NCBI GenBank assembly: GCA_947495075.1
Contig: CANLXH010000001.1
Coordinates: 1,674,001-1,738,000 of the forward strand
Direction of reading: 5' to 3'
DNA: 64,000 nucleotides
From: an uncultured Croceitalea sp.
GTDB taxonomy: Bacteria > Bacteroidota > Bacteroidia > Flavobacteriales > Flavobacteriaceae
Positions 10,555 to 62,163 of the stretch are shown here, piece after piece. How positions within the stretch are numbered: the first letter of the stretch is position 1; every line of letters starts with the position of its first letter. Under the pieces are notes generated by a model, which did no database searches, was not told where the DNA came from, and saw nothing but the letters and a program-made list of their open reading frames with translations. A program made the position numbers and the translations under genes.

Positions 10555-10908
10555 TTTGCTTTTTTAATTAAATTTTATGTTATTAAAAGTAATCCTTGTG
10601 GTACTTTTTAAATTGCGTGTTCTAAGGTCAATATTTATTAATATACCTATTCTTCTTGTTGTCCTGACCATAGGAAAGTGTTTGTTTTATTATTTATAAA
10701 ATTATAAAATGGAAGCACCTAAATCAATACATAGATTTCCTTTCAAATTGTACATTTTTCCTTAGAATCCTCTATTATAACTACTTTTTCTAGGTAAACT
10801 ATAACGTCTACACCAGCCAAATGAAAGACCTACTCAAAATAAAAAAAGGCAATAACCACAAAAATGTTGATTAATATTTTTGAGTTTGCTCACTTAGCTA
10901 AAAGTGAA
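10555..10908. other. Intergenic region upstream of msrB, 354 bp
   Basis: This AT-rich stretch separates the msrB-led operon from the AraC gene on the same strand. It should hold the operon promoter. I find no exact CAAAnnTA (reverse of TAnnTTTG) element; CAAATTGTA at 10744-10752 comes near with one extra base. No gene and no direct repeats like those at 50.9 and 51.5 kb were seen. Confidence 0.35.
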
Positions 10909-33502: not shown

Positions 33503-34357
33503 ATGAAACATGATTTTATTAATCCCGAAAATGGCGGTCTGTTCACCGTAACCGATTTTGAAAATATGAACTACACTCCTTTATTCATGGATAGTGCCTT
33601 ATATAAGGTCTTTTTGAATACTTCAGGAGAAACAAAGTTGTTCGTTGACGGTGTTTTAAAAGTAATACAGAAAAATCAACTTTTCTTCTGTAAGCCTTTA
33701 AACTGTGTAGAGGTAGTTGGTAAATCAGATGGTTTAAAAGCTATTGCTTTTAACAAAGCATTTTATTCGATTCAAGACTATGAAGATGAGGTTTCGTTTT
33801 ATTGGTTCTGGTTTTTTGGGTCAAAATATCCCATGCTTCTTTCGCTCTCAGAGATGGACGTTGATACTTTCGAAAATATGTTTGATTGTTTTGAACGTGA
33901 ATTTGAAAACAAGATAAATAGGGTACAAGAAGAAATGTTGCGTTACGCGTTAAAAAGGGTTTTGGTAATGTCAAACTCATATGTAAAAGATGAAGGTGCT
34001 AACTGCAAACTACACAATAGTCAATTGGAAATGATACGAAAGTTCAATCAATTGATTGAAAAAAATTTTAAAGAGAAGCACCAGGTTTCGGACTATGCAG
34101 CCATGTTGTACAAATCTCCCAAAACCATATCTAATATGTTTAGAAAGCATACTGATAGTACTCCTTCTGATACTATTCGAGATAGGATAATCCTTGAAGC
34201 AAAAAGGCTTCTACTTCGAACAGATCAAACCATTGAAGAAATTACTTATGAGTTGGGCTATGAAACAGTTGGACATTTTTCTAAACTCTTCAAGAACGTA
34301 GTAGGTATGTCTCCCTCAATATATAGAAAAGCTGAAACAGAAGTATTAACAAGCTAA
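33503..34357 (+). CDS. AraC-family transcriptional regulator
   Basis: The 284-residue protein has a C-terminal AraC double helix-turn-helix: VSDYAAMLYKSPKTISNMFRKHT for the first and TIEEITYELGYETVGHFSKLFKNVVGMSPSIYRKA for the second. The N-terminal 170 residues form a sensory domain of about the same size as in the AraC protein at 51732, and shared features (KSPKT, FNKAFYSI/FNRAFYCI, FFG) show the two are paralogues. It is encoded inside the run it probably controls, 11 bp before the MsrA-like gene. The inducer is unknown; reactive chlorine or electrophiles would fit the gene content. Confidence 0.92.
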   Translation: MKHDFINPENGGLFTVTDFENMNYTPLFMDSALYKVFLNTSGETKLFVDGVLKVIQKNQLFFCKPLNCVEVVGKSDGLKAIAFNKAFYSIQDYEDEVSFYWFWFFGSKYPMLLSLSEMDVDTFENMFDCFEREFENKINRVQEEMLRYALKRVLVMSNSYVKDEGANCKLHNSQLEMIRKFNQLIEKNFKEKHQVSDYAAMLYKSPKTISNMFRKHTDSTPSDTIRDRIILEAKRLLLRTDQTIEEITYELGYETVGHFSKLFKNVVGMSPSIYRKAETEVLTS

Positions 34358-49748: not shown

Positions 49749-50501
49749 TTAATTTCTACCTGCCATTACACCACCATCTACGTCCCAAATAGCACCAGTA
49801 GTCCAGCTTGCCTTATCAGAAAGTAAGAACGTTATAGCATTGGCCACTTCTTCTGCTGTACCATTTTTACCAATTGGATGAAAGCCATTAAAGCCTTCCA
49901 GGGCCTTTTCGGCCTCCTCTTTTCCTCCAAAAACACCATGGTATACTGGTGTATCTACTACTGCAGGAGATACCGCATTTACTCGAATGTTATAATCAGC
50001 TAACTCCATTGCAAGATGTTGAGTTAACGAATGTAACCCTGCTTTTTGCATAGAATATGCAGAAGACGGCGTAGCTTTTACAGCTTGTTTTGCCCACATA
50101 GAACCAACATTTACAATACTTCCCCCACCATTTTCTTTCATTTTTTTGGCTACTGCCTGGGTAATGAAAAAGAATCCGCGGTTTAAATCAAGGTAAGAAT
50201 CATAATCCTTAATTGTATGGTCTAGGAATGGTTTTGGACCAAAAATTCCAGAAGCATTAACCAAATAATCTACTTTTGGAAATGATGCTATCTTTGCGAT
50301 AAAATCTTCCAAATCTTCACTATTGGTAATATCTACTCTGTGAATATATACTTTACCAACTTCACCTATATCAACTTTTGCTTGGTTTAATTTTGACTCT
50401 GTAACACCTACTATGTGTACCTCTACATCTTGTGATGCTAATTGTATTGCTGTGGCTTTACCCATTCCGCTATTACCACCTAAAATTATTGCTGTTTTCA
50501 T
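49749..50501 (-). CDS. SDR-family NAD(P)-dependent oxidoreductase
   Basis: The 250-residue classical SDR has the loop [13 protein letters not shown], Ser135, Tyr150 and Lys154 in [10 protein letters not shown], and ends [11 protein letters not shown]. It is a close paralogue of the SDR at 32105, with the second halves nearly superposable ([18 protein letters not shown] against [18 protein letters not shown]). Both genes are within a few kilobases of paralogous AraC genes. The start is 10 bp after the stop of trx, so they are one transcript under the operator at 50899-50934. Probable role: reduction of a reactive carbonyl compound; substrate unknown. Confidence 0.93.
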
Positions 50502-50511
50502 GATTTGTTTA

Positions 50512-50832
50512 TTAAGCTGTTAAAAGATTGTTTAAATTTTGACTTAGTACATCTTTAGGCTGTACTCCATTTTGTTTTCCCACCACTTTTCCATTTTTGA
50601 AATAAAACAATGCAGGAATGCTGCGTACATCAAATTGTGATGATAGCTCGGGGTTCTTATCAACGTTAATTTTTGAGATGATAGCTTTACCTTCAAATTC
50701 TTTATCCAGTACTTCCAGTGTTGGACGTAAAGCATTACAAGGTCCGCACCAGTCGGCATAAAAATCAACCAATACTACATCATTATTATTTATGGTTTCT
50801 TGAAAATTTGATTTATCTAACTGTTGTATCAT
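50512..50832 (-). CDS. trxA: Thioredoxin
   Basis: The 106-residue protein is a classical cytosolic thioredoxin: [18 protein letters not shown] with Cys29 and Cys32, [29 protein letters not shown] with the cis-Pro loop, and no signal peptide. The residue after the second Cys is Asn rather than the usual Lys or Arg, a common variant. It reduces protein disulfides and can support MsrA/MsrB. It lies between the AhpD-like gene (111-bp gap containing an operator) and the SDR gene. Its promoter and operator are described at 50869-50934; this copy is therefore an inducible one and not necessarily the housekeeping thioredoxin. Confidence 0.95.
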
Positions 50833-50868: not shown

Positions 50869-50934
50869 CAAAGTTGGGAAGAAATTGACTGCTCATGGTA
50901 GGTATGTTTTCCTGATAAGTAGGCAATTCTTCCC
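50869..50934 (-). promoter_or_regulatory. Promoter and AraC-type operator of trx-SDR
   Basis: On the plus-strand text two 15-bp direct repeats, TAGGTATGTTTTCCT (50899-50913) and TAGGCAATTCTTCCC (50920-50934), are exactly 21 bp apart. After a 22-bp gap towards the gene comes CAAAGTTG (50869-50876), which on the minus strand reads CAACTTTG, one base from the Bacteroidota -7 consensus TAnnTTTG, 36 bp before the trx start codon. The 21-bp register is that of AraC operators (two helical turns). Spacing and motif are the same as upstream of the AhpD-like gene at 51519-51584. The operator overlaps the position of a -33 element, as for an activator. Confidence 0.75.
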
Positions 50935-50943
50935 AGCATGTTT

Positions 50944-51477
50944 TTATAGTTCAACAGCTACTGGAAAATCTATATCCACATTGGTTACATTATGGAATAA
51001 ATTAGTAATTGTAATTATACCTATAGCTACTATTAAGTCTACCAAGTTTGCTTCGTTATAACCTGCTCCATAAAAAGATTCCAATACTTCGTCTGAGACT
51101 TTTCCTTTTTTATCTGCAATTTCTCGTGCAGTCTGCGCTAAAACATTTGCTTTTTCATCCCAACTGGCTCCTCCTTTTCTTAGTTCTATGATTTGCTCGT
51201 CTGTAAAACCATTCATCTTACCAAGAGCTGTATGAGCAGCTTGGCAATAACGACAACCATTTAATTGGCTCACTGCTAAATCTATAATCTCTTTTTCCTT
51301 TTTGGAAAAGGAAGTAGGTGCAGCCGAAAATTGTAAATAACTACCCAAGGCACTTTCAGAGTTTGCCATGGCTGCGTAAATATTAGGTACAAAACCTACG
51401 CTCTTTTGTAGATTATCAAAAATTGCTTGATTGTTTCCAGATACTTCTCCTCTGGTTGGAACTTTGAATGTTGCCAT
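50944..51477 (-). CDS. AhpD-like carboxymuconolactone decarboxylase-family peroxidase
   Basis: The 177-residue protein has the AhpD core: LAVSQLNGCRYCQAAHTALGKMNGF with Cys75, Cys78 and His82, preceded by NIYAAMANSESALGSYL. AhpD-like proteins are alkylhydroperoxidase-type thiol peroxidases; the CxxC with nearby His and Glu forms the active site. The N-terminal half follows the 'peroxidase-related' pattern VGFVPNIYAAMAN. Thioredoxin, encoded next, is a plausible reductant. A paralogue lies at 56747. It is 254 bp behind the AraC gene, whose operator lies in the gap. This association resembles the RclR-RclX pair of Pseudomonas, although orthology cannot be shown here. Confidence 0.92.
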   Translation of the reverse strand: MATFKVPTRGEVSGNNQAIFDNLQKSVGFVPNIYAAMANSESALGSYLQFSAAPTSFSKKEKEIIDLAVSQLNGCRYCQAAHTALGKMNGFTDEQIIELRKGGASWDEKANVLAQTAREIADKKGKVSDEVLESFYGAGYNEANLVDLIVAIGIITITNLFHNVTNVDIDFPVAVEL

Positions 51478-51518
51478 TTTGTATTTATTTTAATTGTTAC
51501 TATTAAATTTTAACACTA

Positions 51519-51584
51519 CAAAGATGCAATAAGAATAAGGGGGATTAGTAGGTGAGAATGCCCGAATAATAGGCGATTCTTCCC
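51519..51584 (-). promoter_or_regulatory. Promoter and AraC-type operator of the AhpD-like gene
   Basis: Direct repeats TAGGTGAGAATGCCC (51549-51563) and TAGGCGATTCTTCCC (51570-51584) are 21 bp apart, and CAAAGATG (51519-51526; CATCTTTG on the minus strand) lies 22 bp closer to the gene, 41 bp before its start codon. The second repeat differs from its counterpart at 50920 in one base of 15, and the layout is identical, which makes chance unlikely. The AraC gene at 51732 is directly upstream and is the natural candidate to bind here. Confidence 0.8.
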
Positions 51585-51731: not shown

Positions 51732-52565
51732 CTATTGAATTATTGTAATTTTCTTAAAGTCTGTTGGTGAAGTCCCTTCGTAATTTTTAAAAAAGCGACC
51801 AAAGGTCTGTAAATCTTCAAAACCTATTTCATAGGCTATTTCTTTAACACTCTTATCCGTGTAACGCAATAATCTTTTGGCCTCAAGTATTTTACGGTCT
51901 TGTATAAATTGAAGAGGTCTTTTAGACGAAAGTTTCGAAAAAAGATTGGAAAGGGTTTTGGGGGATTTGTGCAGCATTTCGGCATATTCGGCAACCGTGT
52001 TTTTGGTTCGGAAATGTTTTTCTACTAAAAAATTATATTCCCTAATAATATCGATGCTGCCTTCTTCTATTTTATGATAGTTGCTTTGTGATTTAAAGAC
52101 CCTCGTGCACATAATGATGAAACGCTTTAGCATGGACTGAAGCATTTCTAGTTGTAGCCCATCATTAGATTTAAGTTCAATTTCAAACATTTTCCATATC
52201 GTCTGGAATTTTTCAAGTTCTTCTTTAGGAATATCAAATACAGGTAATTGTGAAGCTCCAAAAAACAATATACCCTTGCACCCTACCTCGCTATCGTGGT
52301 CGATGATACAATAAAACGCTCTATTAAATCGAATCAATTTGGCATTGCAAACACCTGAAATATCCACTTTATGAAATTCGGTTAAGCTTATAATTTGATT
52401 CTTATGGAATTGATAAACAACATTATCAATAGTAATTTCATTATTGTCTTGCTCAAACCAAACAAATGTTAAAGGGCTTTCCATAGGTTCTTTTTGAACA
52501 AAACAATTGTTGCTGTGTATGTTCTCGAGCTGTAAGTACTCGCTTATAGGACCTTTGTATATCAT
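51732..52565 (-). CDS. AraC-family transcriptional regulator
   Basis: The 277-residue protein ends in the AraC double helix-turn-helix: VAEYAEMLHKSPKTLSNLFSKLSSK and SVKEIAYEIGFEDLQTFGRFFKNYEGTSPTDFKK. The N-terminal 170 residues share FNRAFYCI, FFG and similar segments with the AraC protein at 33503, so the two are paralogues. It is followed after 254 bp by the AhpD-like gene. Two cysteines near the N-terminus and several others in the sensory domain (NNCFVQKE, GVCNAK, FYCIIDHDSEVGCKG) could serve in redox sensing. I infer that it activates the AhpD-like and trx promoters through the 21-bp repeats. Confidence 0.92.
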   Translation of the reverse strand: MIYKGPISEYLQLENIHSNNCFVQKEPMESPLTFVWFEQDNNEITIDNVVYQFHKNQIISLTEFHKVDISGVCNAKLIRFNRAFYCIIDHDSEVGCKGILFFGASQLPVFDIPKEELEKFQTIWKMFEIELKSNDGLQLEMLQSMLKRFIIMCTRVFKSQSNYHKIEEGSIDIIREYNFLVEKHFRTKNTVAEYAEMLHKSPKTLSNLFSKLSSKRPLQFIQDRKILEAKRLLRYTDKSVKEIAYEIGFEDLQTFGRFFKNYEGTSPTDFKKITIIQ

Positions 52566-56082: not shown

Positions 56083-56643
56083 CTATCCCATCAAATCACC
56101 TAATTTAAATTTCAAGGATTGTCTTGCCCTGTGCAATATTACCCATAAATTTGATTGATTTATACCTAGCTCTTCGCAGATATCATCAGTTTTCCATCCC
56201 ATTGTTTTGAGTTTTATTACTTGGGCTTGCTTTTTAGGCAAGTTTTTAATAGTTAATTGAATAAAATCGTTAACAGCATTGCTATCAAGTTTCATTATTT
56301 CTTTTTCAGAAGAAGAATCGGCCACTTTTTCTTCCAACCAATTGTATTCTTGGCATTTATTTGTTCTCTTTGCCCATTTAAAAGCTTTACCTTTTTGGGT
56401 ATTACATCTGCGATAGTAATCCACTATTTTTCGCTTTAATATAGATGTTAACCATGTGCTTTCTTTGGCATTTCCCTTGTAATTTGGAGCTGCTATAAAA
56501 GCAGCTAGAAAAGTTTCTTGTACCAAATCTTTAGCGGTTTCTAGATGACCTACTCTATTTAATGTATAGGTAACAAACATATCATTATAAGAATCAACCC
56601 ATGCATCCGGATTCAATATATGTTTTTTAATAACAGTATTCAT
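56083..56643 (-). CDS. ECF-type RNA polymerase sigma factor
   Basis: The 186-residue protein has region 2 (VGHLETAKDLVQETFLAAFIAAPNYKGNAKESTWLTSILKRKIVDYYRR) and region 4 (LPKKQAQVIKLKTMGWKTDDICEELGINQSNLWVILHRARQSLKFKL) of ECF sigma factors, separated by a charged linker. No anti-sigma factor with a membrane helix is adjacent: the next gene in the run (39 bp on) encodes the amine oxidase, and upstream is the AhpD-like gene (103 bp). It may be controlled by a distant anti-sigma or by expression level. Its target promoter is not identifiable in the window. Confidence 0.93.
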   Translation of the reverse strand: MNTVIKKHILNPDAWVDSYNDMFVTYTLNRVGHLETAKDLVQETFLAAFIAAPNYKGNAKESTWLTSILKRKIVDYYRRCNTQKGKAFKWAKRTNKCQEYNWLEEKVADSSSEKEIMKLDSNAVNDFIQLTIKNLPKKQAQVIKLKTMGWKTDDICEELGINQSNLWVILHRARQSLKFKLGDLMG

Positions 56644-56746: not shown

Positions 56747-57295
56747 TTAAACCAATTCTGTTTCTAATGGTTGCGCAACAGGAAAATCTACAGGAACACG
56801 CGTGGTATTATTAAGATAATTGGTCACGGTTTTGTCACCAGCTATCATAATAGCGTCTACCATATTTTCTTTGGTCCAACCATTATTAAAAAAGTTTTCG
56901 AGTACCTCGGGGCTCGTTCTACCTCTATTTTCCGTTATGTTTCTTGCGAATCTTGCCAAAGCATCAAGCCTTAAATCTTTTGATGATTTTCCTTGGCGGA
57001 ATTCTATTATTTCTTCTTCTGTGAAACCATTCATTTTTGACACCGCTGTATGGGCCGAAAGACAATATTCACAATTATTTACTTGGCTAACTGCCAAATT
57101 CACTACCTCTTTTTCTTTAGCCTTAAGTGAACTCTTTGCATTGGAAAAATCCAGATAGTTTTTCAATCCATTTTTAGAGTTTGCCATGGTAGCAAAAAGG
57201 TTTGGAACAAAGCCAATCGATTTTTTTAGAGTATCAAAAATCACCTGATTGTTTTCACTTACGTCCTCTCGTTTTGGTACATCAAATGTTATCAT
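56747..57295 (-). CDS. AhpD-like carboxymuconolactone decarboxylase-family peroxidase, second copy
   Basis: The 182-residue protein has Cys75, Cys78 and His82 in LAVSQVNNCEYCLSAHTAVSKMNGF, and the same VGFVPNLFATMANS block as the copy at 50944; the two are clear paralogues over the whole length. The C-terminus is slightly longer. It is followed by the ECF sigma gene. Upstream lie TTCCC repeats 21 bp apart at the same distance as the operator of the first copy, so both may respond to the same AraC regulator. It is expected to act as a thiol peroxidase in the cytosol. Confidence 0.92.
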   Translation of the reverse strand: MITFDVPKREDVSENNQVIFDTLKKSIGFVPNLFATMANSKNGLKNYLDFSNAKSSLKAKEKEVVNLAVSQVNNCEYCLSAHTAVSKMNGFTEEEIIEFRQGKSSKDLRLDALARFARNITENRGRTSPEVLENFFNNGWTKENMVDAIMIAGDKTVTNYLNNTTRVPVDFPVAQPLETELV

Positions 57296-57607
57296 AACTT
57301 TATTTTAAAATTGATTTATAATTGAGAATGTAAATTTCAGGAGAAAGAATATCTTCTGTAATAGTGGATTTTCCCTAATATTTATTCATACTTCCCGATA
57401 TGCTATAGTTTGGTTTTTGAACCATAGAATTACATTAATCTTTATTCTTTTATCATTAATAAGATGGTGGAACATTAGTTAACAGGATTAAGAAATTGAT
57501 TTTATCTTATTTTATGACTTATAGACACTATTTAAATAACACCTTAAAAAATGATAGATATTGCTTAAAGAGCCGTAAATTATATCGCTTAATCAAACCA
57601 TCAAGCG
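57296..57607. other. Divergent intergenic region, 312 bp
   Basis: This region holds the promoters of the second AhpD-like gene (minus) and the TonB receptor gene (plus). The only structured part seen is the candidate operator at 57331-57396; no further gene or hairpin is evident. Confidence 0.4.
57331..57396 (-). promoter_or_regulatory. Weaker copy of the AraC-type operator upstream of the second AhpD-like gene
   Basis: Two half-sites end in TTCCC at 57371-57375 and 57392-57396, again exactly 21 bp apart; the bases before the first read ATAGTGGATT and before the second TTATTCATAC, partly matching the TAGGnnATTC repeats at 50.9 and 51.5 kb. The -7 position predicted from those two promoters falls at 57331-57338, TAAATTTC on the plus strand, which is a poor match. 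The register agrees but the sequence is weaker, so this site is less certain. It could also influence the divergent TonB receptor gene. Confidence 0.45.
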
Positions 57608-60436
57608 ATGGAGACTATTATGAAAGTCCAACCCATAAAAATGCTAATGGTTTTCACCTTCTTTGTATATCATGTTTCTTCTGCACAAATTATATTCGAA
57701 GGAGAGGTTAGAGATGCGAGAGGAGAACCATTAATAGGAGCTCATGTGACGCTTCAACCAAATAATCGGTTTAGTATCACAGATATTAATGGAGTTTTCA
57801 AAATATTGGATATTTCTCCTGGCACATATTTTGTTTCAATTACGCACCTTGGGTCAAAAACATATACTGATACTCTTGAAGTAAATAATAATCCTATATC
57901 AATATCGGTAGTTTTAGAAGATGACTTACTTAGCCTTGAAAGTGTGGTGGTCACCGGAAGTTTTGAGCCTCGAACACAATTAGAATCGAATACCGCAATT
58001 ACTATTTTAACTTCTAAATCTTTAGTAAGGACGTTCCCACAAGGTACAGCTGATCTATTGCAAAGTATTCCCGGAACTTTTACAGACCCTTCGGCAGGCG
58101 AGGTATTTACAAGAGTATACACCAGAGGAATATCAGCATCGGTAGAAGACGATCTGGGTTGGTATTATGTTTCTTTACAAGAAGACGGACTGCCGGTAAG
58201 TTTGGTACAACATTCCTTTTATAGTCCAGATATTTTCCATAGAACAGATTTAACCATAAGAAAGGTGGAAGCAATTAGAGGGGGAAATGCCGCTATTACA
58301 GCACTTAATGGGCCAGGTGCAATTTTTAACTTTATATCCCGTGGTCCTTATGATCGTTTTAATGGGGAGTTCTCTCTTTCGGGAGGAATTCAGGGTGATG
58401 ATAATGAAGTCTCTAAACTAGAGGGAACCATTGGTGGTCCATTGGGTAATGACTGGTATTATAATATAGGTGGGCACTATCGTTGGGACGAAGGTGCCAG
58501 AAATGTAAATTATACTTTTAGTAAAGGAGGACAGGTAAAATTCAATATTACAAAGAACAATGACAAAGGCTACATTAAACTTTACGGTAAGCTGTTGGAT
58601 GATTTTACAAATAGGTATAATGGTGTAGCAGCAGTTAATTGGGATAATCCTAGTGCTGCATTTGGTCAAGATTTTAACTCTACGGCGCTTTTACTACCAA
58701 AATTAAATGCAACTATTCCAGATGGTCGCAATACACTCGGTGGTGCATCAAATTCTTTTAATACTTCTAGGGGATTGCATGCTCAAGATTTAGCTTTGGG
58801 GATTGATGTTCTTCAGGAATTTGATAAAGAATGGAACCTTCATCTAAACATAAAATACTCCAATAAAAGTGCCGAATGGGAAACATCTCAAGGGAATTCA
58901 TTGATTTCTTTGAACAACCCAGTTGCCTATTTTGCGAGCGGAGCCGAACTCCCCATAGGACAGGTTGTGTTTAGAGATGCAAACTCTAAAGAAGAAGTGG
59001 CTAGAGTTAACAATAGTGGCGTGGTTATGGGTGGGACCTTTGAATATTTGAGTGATGGTAGATTGCCTAATGATGCTATTATGGGTGCCTTACCATGGTA
59101 CAAACAAAACAAAACAAAAGAATGGATAGGCCAATTCTCCGTAAGTAAAGAATTGGATAAACATGATTTAAGCTTTGGTATTGCAGGTGGGTTTTCAGAT
59201 ACATCAGCATTCACGCAGGCAAGCTTCGCATATGTTACCTATGAACCCAACCCAAGAATGTTAGAAGTAACCCTTGAAAACCCTGGACAACCTGTGATTG
59301 CTTTGTCCGATCCAACTGGAATAAGTAATTATGGCCGTTTATTCTATGGCAACTCAAGAGCTAATGTTAGCCAATTGGCAGGCTATATCAATGACCGTTG
59401 GAATGTTTTTGATAAAGTACACCTAGATATAGGCTTTCGTTATGAGAACATTGGACACAAAGGAAGCAATGATAGATTCGCTCCCTTAGACCATGACGGT
59501 GGGCTAGATGGCAATGTTAACACCGCTTTTGATAATGAAATACTAAGTTCAACAGGTGTTGTAGATAATTTTAATTTTAATTACGACTACCTTTCCTATT
59601 CTATGGGTATAAACTATAAATTTTTGGACGTAGCTGCTCTTTTTGCTCGCTTTTCATCAGCCAATAAAGCACCTGAACTCAATTACTATTTTAATAATTT
59701 TTCCAATGTGCCCATTAATCAAGAAGGGCAAGTACAAAAAATCCAACAAGCTGAACTGGGCTTAAAGTGGAATAAAAAAAGATTCTCATCAACCGTCACA
59801 ACTTTTTGGAGTCAATTAAAAAATGTTGGTTTTATAGATTTTGAGTTTGACCCAGAAGATGGTAGCATTTTTTATGCCCCAGTACAATTTAATAATTCAA
59901 GGACAATAGGAGTGGAACTGGAAACTGCCTACGCACCTATTACTAACTTAAGCTTTTTTGTTAATGCTACCATTCAACATGCAAAAGCCATACAATGGAC
60001 GGTTTATGATGCAGCTGATACCGTAGATATGAGTGATGATTCCATTATTCACTTTTCAGGAAATAACTTGCCTTATAATCCAAACCTAATGCTAAATACA
60101 ACAATGGAGTATGATAATAACAAAATTAATACATTCTTAAAGTGGCAATTTATGGGGGAGCGTGAAGCTAACATAGCTAATGGGTTTCAATTGCCTGCTT
60201 ATAGTGTTTTCAATTTAGGTCTCGGTTATAGAATTAGTCAAAAGATAGCTGCAAATCTATTGATAACCAATATTTTTAATTCTGCTGGACTAACCAATTT
60301 TTTGGGAGTAAACCGTATAGGGGCTAATATAAATGATGTGACTACCGAGTTCGTAGTACAAAATCCAGATGTGAGTTTTGTAGTAGTTCCTATTCTACCT
60401 AGAAGTACTATTCTTAAATTGAATTATAAATTTTAA
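57608..60436 (+). CDS. TonB-dependent outer-membrane receptor
   Basis: The 942-residue protein has a signal peptide (cut near SSAQ). Residues of about 27-112 are a carboxypeptidase-regulatory-like domain (FEGEVRDARGEPLIGAHVTLQ), about 120-240 the plug (SVVVTGSFEPRTQLES, AITILTSKSLVRTFPQGTADLLQSIPG), and the rest a 22-strand barrel ending TILKLNYKF. It imports an unknown ligand across the outer membrane using TonB. No SusD partner follows; instead there is an NTF2-like gene 256 bp later and cytochrome P460 genes. A link to iron, heme or copper import is possible but not shown. Confidence 0.94.
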   Translation: METIMKVQPIKMLMVFTFFVYHVSSAQIIFEGEVRDARGEPLIGAHVTLQPNNRFSITDINGVFKILDISPGTYFVSITHLGSKTYTDTLEVNNNPISISVVLEDDLLSLESVVVTGSFEPRTQLESNTAITILTSKSLVRTFPQGTADLLQSIPGTFTDPSAGEVFTRVYTRGISASVEDDLGWYYVSLQEDGLPVSLVQHSFYSPDIFHRTDLTIRKVEAIRGGNAAITALNGPGAIFNFISRGPYDRFNGEFSLSGGIQGDDNEVSKLEGTIGGPLGNDWYYNIGGHYRWDEGARNVNYTFSKGGQVKFNITKNNDKGYIKLYGKLLDDFTNRYNGVAAVNWDNPSAAFGQDFNSTALLLPKLNATIPDGRNTLGGASNSFNTSRGLHAQDLALGIDVLQEFDKEWNLHLNIKYSNKSAEWETSQGNSLISLNNPVAYFASGAELPIGQVVFRDANSKEEVARVNNSGVVMGGTFEYLSDGRLPNDAIMGALPWYKQNKTKEWIGQFSVSKELDKHDLSFGIAGGFSDTSAFTQASFAYVTYEPNPRMLEVTLENPGQPVIALSDPTGISNYGRLFYGNSRANVSQLAGYINDRWNVFDKVHLDIGFRYENIGHKGSNDRFAPLDHDGGLDGNVNTAFDNEILSSTGVVDNFNFNYDYLSYSMGINYKFLDVAALFARFSSANKAPELNYYFNNFSNVPINQEGQVQKIQQAELGLKWNKKRFSSTVTTFWSQLKNVGFIDFEFDPEDGSIFYAPVQFNNSRTIGVELETAYAPITNLSFFVNATIQHAKAIQWTVYDAADTVDMSDDSIIHFSGNNLPYNPNLMLNTTMEYDNNKINTFLKWQFMGEREANIANGFQLPAYSVFNLGLGYRISQKIAANLLITNIFNSAGLTNFLGVNRIGANINDVTTEFVVQNPDVSFVVVPILPRSTILKLNYKF

Positions 60437-60692
60437 TTGGCTTTAAAATAGGTTGTACTAAAAGGAATCAGCAACTCTAATCTTAAAGCAGAATATAAAC
60501 TTTAACTAGGCAAATAGCATTTTCTATATTGTTGATTATTAACGCTTACCCTTCTAATTACTATTATTTCTAAGGTTATTTTCTCTATTAAATGTATAAA
60601 AAGGGAAAATAGTATAAATAGTAAGGAAACAATACTATTCTACGGTAAATTCTTCTCGGTTAATTTTGTTCACATAAAACCAAAGTACAGAA

Positions 60693-61049
60693 ATGAAACT
60701 TTCAAATTCGATAAGCCATTTTATAAGTCTTCTCAAGTGTCAGAAACTAGAAGATAGCGTAAAGTTATATATGGATGATAGTATTCAGATAGACCATAAC
60801 GGAAAAAGTAATAGAGTAGCCCACAACTGTTGGATAAGGTTTATGAAAAAAATATTTCTTAACCAAAGAACTTCAATTCTACAGCTCAATATTAGCGACG
60901 ATAGCATTAATGAAAATTCCAACGCATTTGTAATTCATATAATTTGTAAGAGAGAAAGTGGAGAATTATTTTTCACCGAAATACATATACAGAACATCTG
61001 GGTAAAAAACAAAATATCGAAACTTAGCTATAATACAATTCACTTTTAA
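60693..61049 (+). CDS. SnoaL/NTF2-like protein
   Basis: The 118-residue protein has an N-terminal helix pair (SHFISLLKCQKLEDSVKLYMDDSIQIDHN) and curved strands (AFVIHIICKRESGELFFTEIHIQNIWVKNKISKLSYNTIHF), a layout typical of NTF2-like cones. No signal peptide is obvious. TAATTTTG at 60661-60668, a match to the -7 element TAnnTTTG, lies 24 bp ahead of the start codon. The first cytochrome P460 gene follows after 10 bp, so the two are cotranscribed. Function unknown. Confidence 0.6.
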   Translation: MKLSNSISHFISLLKCQKLEDSVKLYMDDSIQIDHNGKSNRVAHNCWIRFMKKIFLNQRTSILQLNISDDSINENSNAFVIHIICKRESGELFFTEIHIQNIWVKNKISKLSYNTIHF

Positions 61050-61059
61050 ACAAATAATT

Positions 61060-62163
61060 ATGACAAACAAATTTAACATTTTCACAGTACTGGGTCTTTT
61101 GGTATTGTTGCAACTAACTTCTTGTAATGATGCGAAAGATCAGTACGTAGCAGTTACGCACTTTACAATAGATGCCAATGGAGAATTAGAACGCCCAACT
61201 GGTTATCGAAGTTGGGTCTACGTTGGAACTCCAGTAACACCCAACGACTTAAATGATGGAAAAGCACCTTTTCCGGAAATGCACAATGTATACATTGATC
61301 CTCATAGTTTTGACCACTACAAGAAAACTGGGGAATTCCGTGAAGGGGCAATTCTTGTTAAGGAATTGGTAAGTATAGGTTCTAAGGCAGCCGTTAGTGG
61401 AAACGGTTATTTTGCAGGAGAGTTTATTGGTTTAGAGGCATCTGTTAAGAGTAAAGAACATTTTCCAGATGAACCTGGTAATTGGGCCATATTTAGTTTT
61501 ACCAACCCTGAAGAAGGAACACTAAAACAAACCGCAGCAGCTTTACCAACGAACATGTGTAATGCATGCCACCAGGCTAATGCAGAAGATGACTTTGTAT
61601 TTACCCAATATTATCCTGTATTACGAGCAGCTAAGGGTATTGGTATGGATGTGAGTCCTGAAGATAGCGCAGAAAGAAAACCCTCAAAAAAGGAGGTGAG
61701 TATTTGGGATGCCACAGTACCAACCCCAGAAGGTTTAGTTCTTGAAATTCCCTTAGAGAGAAATCAATTATTCGCTTACCTAAAAGAAGGTAAATATAGG
61801 GCCTATAAAAATCAAGAAAAGAAATTGCACCCCTCAGAAGGGCCGCACCAAAAAGTAGGGTTACCTGTTAAGGTATTTATTAATGACATCTTAGCCAAGT
61901 CTCTAGAGGCTGGAAATACAGAACACCCTTTAGGTTCTGTATCAGTTAAAGAAATGTATGATGAAAATTCACAACCAGCAGGTTGGGCTGTTTTCGCCAA
62001 AACCCATGACAAATCTGATGGAGGTAATGGTTGGTTTTGGTATGAAGTTACAGATTCAGAAGATGCTACCAAAATTGCAGCGATTGGAAATGGTGTAATT
62101 GGATGCGCAAGCTGCCATACTATTGGAAAAGACATGGTACGTACCAAATTTCCGCTCAATTAA
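61060..62163 (+). CDS. Diheme cytochrome P460-family lipoprotein
   Basis: The 367-residue protein has a lipobox (LLQLTSCND, Cys23 or so). The first domain (about 25-205) is cytochrome P460-like: GYRSWVYVGTPVTPND, MHNVYIDPHSFDHYKKTG, EGAILVKELVSIG and the heme motif CNACH (Cys167, Cys170, His171). A second domain (about 215-367), also ending in a heme motif CASCH (Cys349, Cys352, His353), follows. Cytochromes P460 oxidise hydroxylamine or handle NO using a Lys-crosslinked heme; the Lys in ILVKEL is a candidate. The neighbour 23 bp downstream is a one-domain copy. Periplasmic detoxification of reactive nitrogen is a reasonable guess. Confidence 0.85.
   Translation: MTNKFNIFTVLGLLVLLQLTSCNDAKDQYVAVTHFTIDANGELERPTGYRSWVYVGTPVTPNDLNDGKAPFPEMHNVYIDPHSFDHYKKTGEFREGAILVKELVSIGSKAAVSGNGYFAGEFIGLEASVKSKEHFPDEPGNWAIFSFTNPEEGTLKQTAAALPTNMCNACHQANAEDDFVFTQYYPVLRAAKGIGMDVSPEDSAERKPSKKEVSIWDATVPTPEGLVLEIPLERNQLFAYLKEGKYRAYKNQEKKLHPSEGPHQKVGLPVKVFINDILAKSLEAGNTEHPLGSVSVKEMYDENSQPAGWAVFAKTHDKSDGGNGWFWYEVTDSEDATKIAAIGNGVIGCASCHTIGKDMVRTKFPLN

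Follow-up and report, generated by a model that had tools for sequence, protein, structure and literature searches.

Paired direct repeats at a fixed distance from a Bacteroidota-type −7 box as predicted operators of an AraC-family regulator in Croceitalea sp. and its relatives

The stretch of DNA analysed here, called the window below, comprises 64,000 nucleotides of an uncultured Croceitalea sp. Its minus strand carries genes for an AraC-family regulator, an AhpD-like enzyme of the CMD family, a thioredoxin (trx) and an SDR oxidoreductase (Table 1). The latter two are separated by 10 bases and are probably co-transcribed. The CMD enzyme remained below the cut-offs of the AhpD equivalog TIGR00777 (19 bits, cut-off 191.95) and of the peroxidase-related family TIGR01926 (68.6 bits, cut-off 81.8). 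The regulator combines a C-terminal two-HTH domain with an N-terminal cupin-like ligand/dimerisation domain, which places it in the AraC-like subgroup of the AraC/XylS family. Its predicted structure (pLDDT 78.5, pTM 0.69) resembles the regulatory domains of RhaR, AraC and BgaR as well as DNA-binding domains of the AraC type. The best NCBIfam match, to the equivalog of HpaA, the 4-hydroxyphenylacetate regulator (TIGR02297), scored 99.4 bits against a cut-off of 274.65, and the match to the RclR equivalog NF040475 (18.7 bits, cut-off 400) was confined to the DNA-binding part.

Table 1. Genes and predicted regulatory elements of the window
Feature	Position	Strand	Evidence or remarks
277-aa regulator of the AraC family with a cupin-like sensor (Cys86/Cys96) and a two-HTH DNA-binding domain	51732..52565	−	Pfam HTH_18 1.8e-22
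AhpD-like CMD-family enzyme with CxxCxxxH	50944..51477	−	Pfam CMD 3.1e-15; ahpD_dom TIGR00778 49.4 bits, cut-off 27.8
Thioredoxin with WCGPC	50512..50832	−	TIGR01068 111.8 bits, cut-off 96.8
SDR oxidoreductase	49749..50501	−	Pfam adh_short_C2 1.1e-52
CMD (AhpD-like) promoter, predicted distal half-site GGGAAGAATCGCCTA	51570..51584	−	forward-strand letters TAGGCGATTCTTCCC
CMD promoter, predicted proximal half-site GGGCATTCTCACCTA, about −49 to −35	51549..51563	−	forward-strand letters TAGGTGAGAATGCCC
CMD promoter, −7 box CATCTTTG	51519..51526	−	forward-strand letters CAAAGATG; predicted start 51514
trx promoter, predicted distal half-site GGGAAGAATTGCCTA	50920..50934	−	forward-strand letters TAGGCAATTCTTCCC
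trx promoter, predicted proximal half-site AGGAAAACATACCTA	50899..50913	−	forward-strand letters TAGGTATGTTTTCCT
trx promoter, −7 box CAACTTTG	50869..50876	−	forward-strand letters CAAAGTTG; predicted start 50864
Candidate third operator GGGAAGTATGAATAA-ATATTA-GGGAAAATCCACTAT before the CMD paralogue	57361..57396	−	matrix 15.7; −7 box degenerate (GAAATTTA)
Possible fourth site with 21/22 geometry, TAATTTTG	60603..60668	+	strict pattern match; low confidence
Second CMD/AhpD-like gene	56747..57295	−	54% identical to the first

In gene orientation (minus strand), the site in front of the CMD gene is GGGAAGAATCGCCTA-TTATTC-GGGCATTCTCACCTA-N22-CATCTTTG and the one in front of trx GGGAAGAATTGCCTA-CTTATC-AGGAAAACATACCTA-N22-CAACTTTG. 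In both, the half-sites start 21 bp apart and are followed, after 22 bp, by CAnCTTTG; the trx operator begins 9 bases past the stop of the CMD gene. An earlier note on this DNA had described these 15-bp direct repeats, their 21-bp spacing and the 22-bp gap to the −7 element, and each was found exactly where the note had placed it. Its opinion that such an arrangement was unlikely to arise by chance could be put into numbers. The paired pattern occurred twice in the 3.73-Mb genome, both times at the window sites, and its reversed control not at all; a fuller consensus, allowing up to 3 mismatches, likewise gave 2 matches against 0. A matrix of 75 positions, trained on 65 distinct sites of other genomes only (from the best 80 of at least 551 AraC-relative loci), scored 68.1 for the CMD site and 59.4 for the trx site, whereas the best scores in 60 random windows had a mean of −18.8 (s.d. 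5.4) and a maximum of −5.9. The random windows and loci used with this matrix are first-order Markov copies, not exact shuffles. Because the training sites were picked by a strict pattern in which the RGG[AC]A boxes and the −7 box are fixed, these elements are invariant partly by construction; the matrix columns outside the pattern (TTGCCAA, CCTA and the start purine) are not so constrained. The two window sites are confirmed as real and lie far beyond chance.

Weaker candidates were also present. The site before the second CMD gene was third best in the window by matrix and higher than all 60 random windows. This second CMD gene has as neighbours two ORFs labelled by eye, one (56083-56643) resembling an ECF sigma factor and one (57608-60436) a TonB receptor. 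The possible plus-strand site at 60603, in front of the 118-aa ORF and a cytochrome P460 gene (region 60603-62163), came fourth with a matrix score of −13.4, inside the range of the random windows. A search of the genome with one mismatch yielded 6 matches against 3 for the control, which makes such matches, the one at 60603 included, unsafe. A minus-strand match at 10762 falls into the same doubtful class. None of the 12 best matrix matches in the window lay upstream of araC.

Among relatives the same arrangement recurred. The AraC protein found a match in 79 of 98 related genomes; two groups stood out, a top group with 52-61% identity and a sister group with about 42-46%. With flanks of 1.5 kb, a CMD gene adjoined the regulator in 23 of 30 loci (L003-L032). 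Twenty longer regions, 19 around CMD-adjoining regulators of relatives plus the sister module that lies in the same genome as the window (L042), were searched with a pattern that permitted gaps of 14 to 30, and 19 of them had the architecture with a gap of 22; the sole exception, L048, had no strict site. A larger set consisted of the best 80 of at least 551 confirmed AraC matches, picked only for their AraC relative, and thus leans to close relatives. These loci came from Flavobacteriales, Saprospiraceae, Chitinophagales, Cytophagales, Algoriphagus, Prolixibacteraceae, Ancylomarina and others, and 60 of the 80 had a strict site (66 sites in total). When 418 combinations of spacing and gap were scanned over 655,677 bases, 66 of 80 pattern matches fell at 21/22 and the other 417 combinations together accounted for 14. 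As to the 20 loci lacking a strict site, 13 had a matrix site of at least 35.9 immediately past araC, one had only a weak site (5.0) and six had none, the top score in 100 random copies of these loci being 14.2. The repeats and the 22-bp gap, which the earlier note knew from the window, are thus kept in these relatives, by strict pattern in 60 of the best 80 loci and by matrix in 13 more. At least seven loci are counted twice across the locus sets (L043/L115, L045/L120, L046/L137, L047/L158, L113/L184, L117/L190, L133/L208), so that the counts of first genes and of site-first loci given below do not all represent independent genomes.

The site was also linked to the presence of the regulator. 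The strict pattern occurred in 81 of 299 family genomes and the reversed control, counted by eye, in 14. For the 53 family genomes common to the AraC search and the pattern search (table compiled by reading the outputs), the site was present in 19/19 genomes with the AraC clade and in 2/34 without it (Fisher p 1.8e-12). The clade limit was set at E 1e-50, and no family genome fell between 1e-40 and 5.6e-60. A sample chosen from the sites comprised the first 40 listed loci of genomes outside the 98-genome AraC search; L184, L190 and L208 of these had also fed the matrix training. It contained 49 sites, 40 of them scoring above 10. A gene of the AraC clade was found within 1.2 kb of 35 of these 40 good sites, and 36 were followed by a gene of the CMD, small-Cys, isochorismatase-like or trx kind. 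The nine sites scoring below 0 had no clade AraC in the stretch, and one had a thioredoxin-like match. Good sites thus go with the regulator, and poor ones have the look of expected chance matches. The distance to the end of araC is some 30 bases or less for many sites. Taken as a genomic association, these observations support the view that the repeats would be read by the adjacent AraC-family protein.

Further indications came from the recognition helices, compared with the half-site letters in 116 distinct pairs of a site and the nearest AraC in the same locus (identical sites counted once, multi-site regulators more than once). The helix of HTH1 was near constant, KSPKTLSN in 84 of the 116 and close variants in 32, as was its presumed box GGGAA, which is fixed by the pattern. 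In HTH2, glutamine at residue 253 went with C at operator position 12 in 48/72 pairs, serine with A in 24/24 and alanine with A or G in 17/17; threonine, histidine and glycine occurred once each. CC at positions 33-34 accompanied glutamine in 59/72, serine in 2/24 and alanine in 5/17. Such covariation of HTH2 with box B is as direct reading of this box by HTH2 would predict, although 24 of the 72 glutamine pairs, with A or T at position 12, run counter to it. The covariation follows the clades, and part of it could come from shared ancestry.

The position of the repeats relative to the promoter hints at their mode of action. According to a transcriptome study of Flavobacterium psychrophilum (PMC9723704), the flavobacterial −7 box sits at −12 to −5. 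The starts in Table 1 were inferred from this placement and are 2 bases off those of the earlier note (50862 and 51512). On this scale, the start is consensus position 71, the proximal half-site spans −49 to −35 and the distal one −70 to −56. The predicted start was a purine in 64 of 65 sites, and start codons mostly lay 23 to 47 bases past the −7 box. Near −33, TTTG was found in 0/65 sites and TTG in 8/65. The gap contained a moderately conserved, pyrimidine-rich CCTTCTTTT-like stretch (positions 44-58), and the CG directly before the −7 box was moderately conserved too. Class II sites are marked by direct half-sites in tandem, about 21 bp apart and next to −35, and this arrangement was present in the window and in the 66 sites. 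We consider it very probable that the repeats serve as the operator of the adjacent AraC-family protein and that the latter acts as a class II activator in place of a −33 element. Two protein units would occupy the two head-to-tail half-sites, 21 bp or two helical turns apart. Within each half-site, the GGGAA box would be read by HTH1 and the box nearer the promoter (GCCTA/ACCTA) by HTH2. With its end at about −35, the proximal half-site would stand where the −33 element is missing, and from there the regulator may touch RNA polymerase carrying the primary sigma factor of Bacteroidota, bound at CAnCTTTG. It is this end of the second half-site and the absent −33 element that favor activation over repression. 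The AhpD-like gene and trx-SDR would be the targets in the window, possibly together with the second AhpD-like gene; control of the SDR gene would operate only via its presumed co-transcription with trx.

Similarities to E. coli AraC at araI1-I2 of araBAD are evident, since both belong to the same family, with direct half-sites 21 bp apart and a cupin-type sensor fold. The proximal half-site araI2 ends about −35, as does the proximal half-site here. There are, however, also differences: a Bacteroidota-type −7 box, no −33/−35 element seen and other half-site letters, as well as a Cys pair in the sensor and thiol-enzyme targets. The sigma-A promoters described in PMC9723704 share a −7 box of the TAnnTTTG type at −12 to −5; here the box takes the CAnCTTTG form and comes with a fixed upstream operator.

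First genes were scored behind 90 sites (L042-L061, L097-L176 and the window), with classes assigned by BLAST to one representative each. A CMD gene came first in 39 cases, an isochorismatase-like gene in 21, a gene for a small Cys protein, with CMD next, in 18 and a thioredoxin gene in 8; rarer were RskA_C anti-sigma (2), OsmC-like (1) and the 118-aa ORF of the window (1). The earlier note had the adjacent AraC protein activate its own peroxidase-thioredoxin-SDR module. The operator part of this proposal is supported by co-occurrence, by the position behind araC and by covariation, and activation is suggested by the position of the site; the target set was conceived too narrowly, as it is wider and also includes isochorismatase-like, OsmC-like and small Cys proteins. 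In several loci (e.g. L107, L117, L119, L120, L124, L125) the same-strand gene run headed by the site continues into araC, so that positive autoregulation is possible there. An operator also precedes the anti-sigma-K-like (RskA_C) genes at L140:2942-3962 and L169:3949-5064; such targets would tie the regulator to a sigma factor circuit.

The small protein of about 50 aa has a C-x9-C motif (..HCEQKHHHDFYCDAEKPF..) and is encoded first behind the operator at L042:4987-5148, on a second contig of the window's own genome, and in 36 further loci. It was mostly found in the sister AraC clade, with a few loci in the top clade (L129, L130, L141, L145, L150, L164, L203). Of 39 aligned ORFs, two of which (L190 and L196) seem to be chance ORFs, 36-38 retained C45, D52, Y54 and C55. 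In 30 pairs with at least 70% identity, 340 codon differences were synonymous and 359 non-synonymous. Ten of the loci had a second operator 249-270 bp on, before CMD. One member, when searched, had no Pfam match above cut-off and no NCBIfam match.

The sensor domain carries the motif FYC-x9-C. Both cysteines, C86 and C96, were present in all 116 site/regulator pairs and His90 in 113; the confidence of the structural model is low in this part, with residues 92-94 under 50. More distant relatives kept both cysteines in 14 of 20 cases. In the window's second AraC relative (33503-34357, 36% identical), which is outside this set of 20, Ser and Phe replace them (FYS, VSF), and the best matrix score in the 5 kb surrounding its gene was −8.1. 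Five of the 14 distant Cys-pair relatives had a matrix match above 10 (L218, L219, L225, L228, L234), three had the same geometry by eye at scores of 6.4, −0.4 and −5.1 (L217, L233 and L235), and six were without a site by matrix or eye (L220, L221, L222, L223, L226, L236). Being trained on the GGGAA class, the matrix may miss other half-site letters in distant relatives. The genes behind the distant sites were OsmC-like (L218 and L234 by Pfam, L233 and L235 by look), CMD (L219), cupredoxin (L217) and alpha/beta hydrolase (L228). Half-sites ending TCCAT or TCCAA, in the same 21/22 geometry before a −7 box, were seen at L219:819, L225:3013, L229:1111 and L230:1118; the distant AraC relatives at L229 and L230 have the first Cys only.

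The invariant Cys pair and the many thiol enzymes among the targets suggest a thiol or electrophile response, and we see about an even chance that the signal would be an oxidant or electrophile sensed by the C86-x9-C96 pair. RclR, the hypochlorite-specific regulator of E. coli, is an AraC-family protein too and senses by redox-active cysteines; its resemblance to the present regulator is limited to the sub-cut-off match in the DNA-binding part. The peroxide switches OhrR and OxyR likewise place thiol peroxidase genes under a thiol sensor, with other protein families and operators. The regulator described here is not a member of these families but would work alike if the Cys pair is the sensor. 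More tentatively, and with somewhat less than even confidence, a Bacteroidota-wide superfamily of AraC proteins with the FYC-x9-C sensor may control thiol peroxidases and detoxification genes through the rigid 21/22 design, with a CAnCTTTG-type −7 box and no −33 element. Only the half-site letters would then change as the recognition helices diverge, and the protein of about 50 aa would be a regulated effector. Our confidence in this extension was lowered by the six distant Cys-pair relatives without a site. If true, the superfamily would be the phylum's counterpart of OhrR/QsrR-type switches.

The main rival to thiol sensing is that AraC binds the repeats as proposed but responds to a small ligand in the cupin pocket, such as an aromatic compound, a quinone or an organic acid, and controls a detoxification or catabolic module. 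The match to HpaA and the likeness of the fold to the sugar-sensing domains of AraC, RhaR and BgaR are consistent with such a ligand, as are the isochorismatase-like hydrolases and the SDR among the targets; an aromatic compound could just as well be what a CMD/isochorismatase set responds to, and in one distant locus an ABM (monooxygenase) match of 21 bits stayed below its threshold of 23.1. It would, however, leave the retention of both cysteines in all pairs and in most distant relatives unaccounted for, as well as the thioredoxin and OsmC-like first genes. We regard this explanation as plausible, if on balance rather doubtful. Both readings can hold, as they are not exclusive.

The remaining explanations concern the site rather than the signal. 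Repression from the site, or mere autoregulation, is conceivable, as some AraC-family proteins repress, but the site is located upstream of −35, where it does not cover the −7 box, and the window has no site upstream of araC among its best matches. Moreover, TTTG is missing near −33 in 65/65 sites and TTG in 57/65, so that the core promoter looks weak alone; we take repression to be quite improbable. Marginally less probable still is that another transcription factor reads the repeats and AraC is a bystander in a conserved cluster. Good sites with no clade AraC in the 6-kb stretch (L191, L199, L211, L212) or with one 7.5 kb away (L190:3009) would fit this, although they may be read in trans. 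The match of presence and absence (19/19 against 2/34), the many sites close to the araC end and the covariation with HTH2 argue against it. Repeats arisen by chance, or a general promoter element in extended form, would agree with the nine of 49 strict site-first matches that look random and with the reversed pattern in 14 of 299 genomes. They would not produce the true pattern in 81 of these genomes, the outcome of the random-window and spacing controls or the link to AraC; their probability is negligible, and for both window sites they were rejected. The reading as an operator of the adjacent AraC activator is thus the one retained.

We found no description of this operator or regulator in the openly accessible literature searched, including passages of PMC10434189, PMC9723704, PMC9296495 and PMC12596196; the word AraC is absent from the main text of PMC9723704. 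A CMD-family protein of Zobellia galactanivorans, ZGAL_1598, is induced on fresh Laminaria digitata, according to PMC9296495. The best 80 of at least 551 AraC loci included no Zobellia locus that might tie ZGAL_1598 to an operator.

In conclusion, direct-repeat AraC operators are known, and the one predicted here would add a case in which the −7 box is of the Bacteroidota type and no −33 element is visible. The shared site, recurring beside relatives of the regulator, points to a stress-response switch that may so far have escaped description. Bacteroidota promoters lack the usual −35 logic, and to our knowledge few of the many AraC-family regulators of this phylum have a known operator. Here, regulator, operator, spacing rule and target set are all readable from the genomes, in dozens of them, which makes class II activation with an unusual primary sigma factor directly testable and the operators of related regulators predictable. 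For flavobacterial genetics, the sites may also supply candidate promoters that depend on an activator. Should the two cysteines prove to be the sensor, a phylum widespread in marine, soil and gut habitats would gain a thiol-stress switch.
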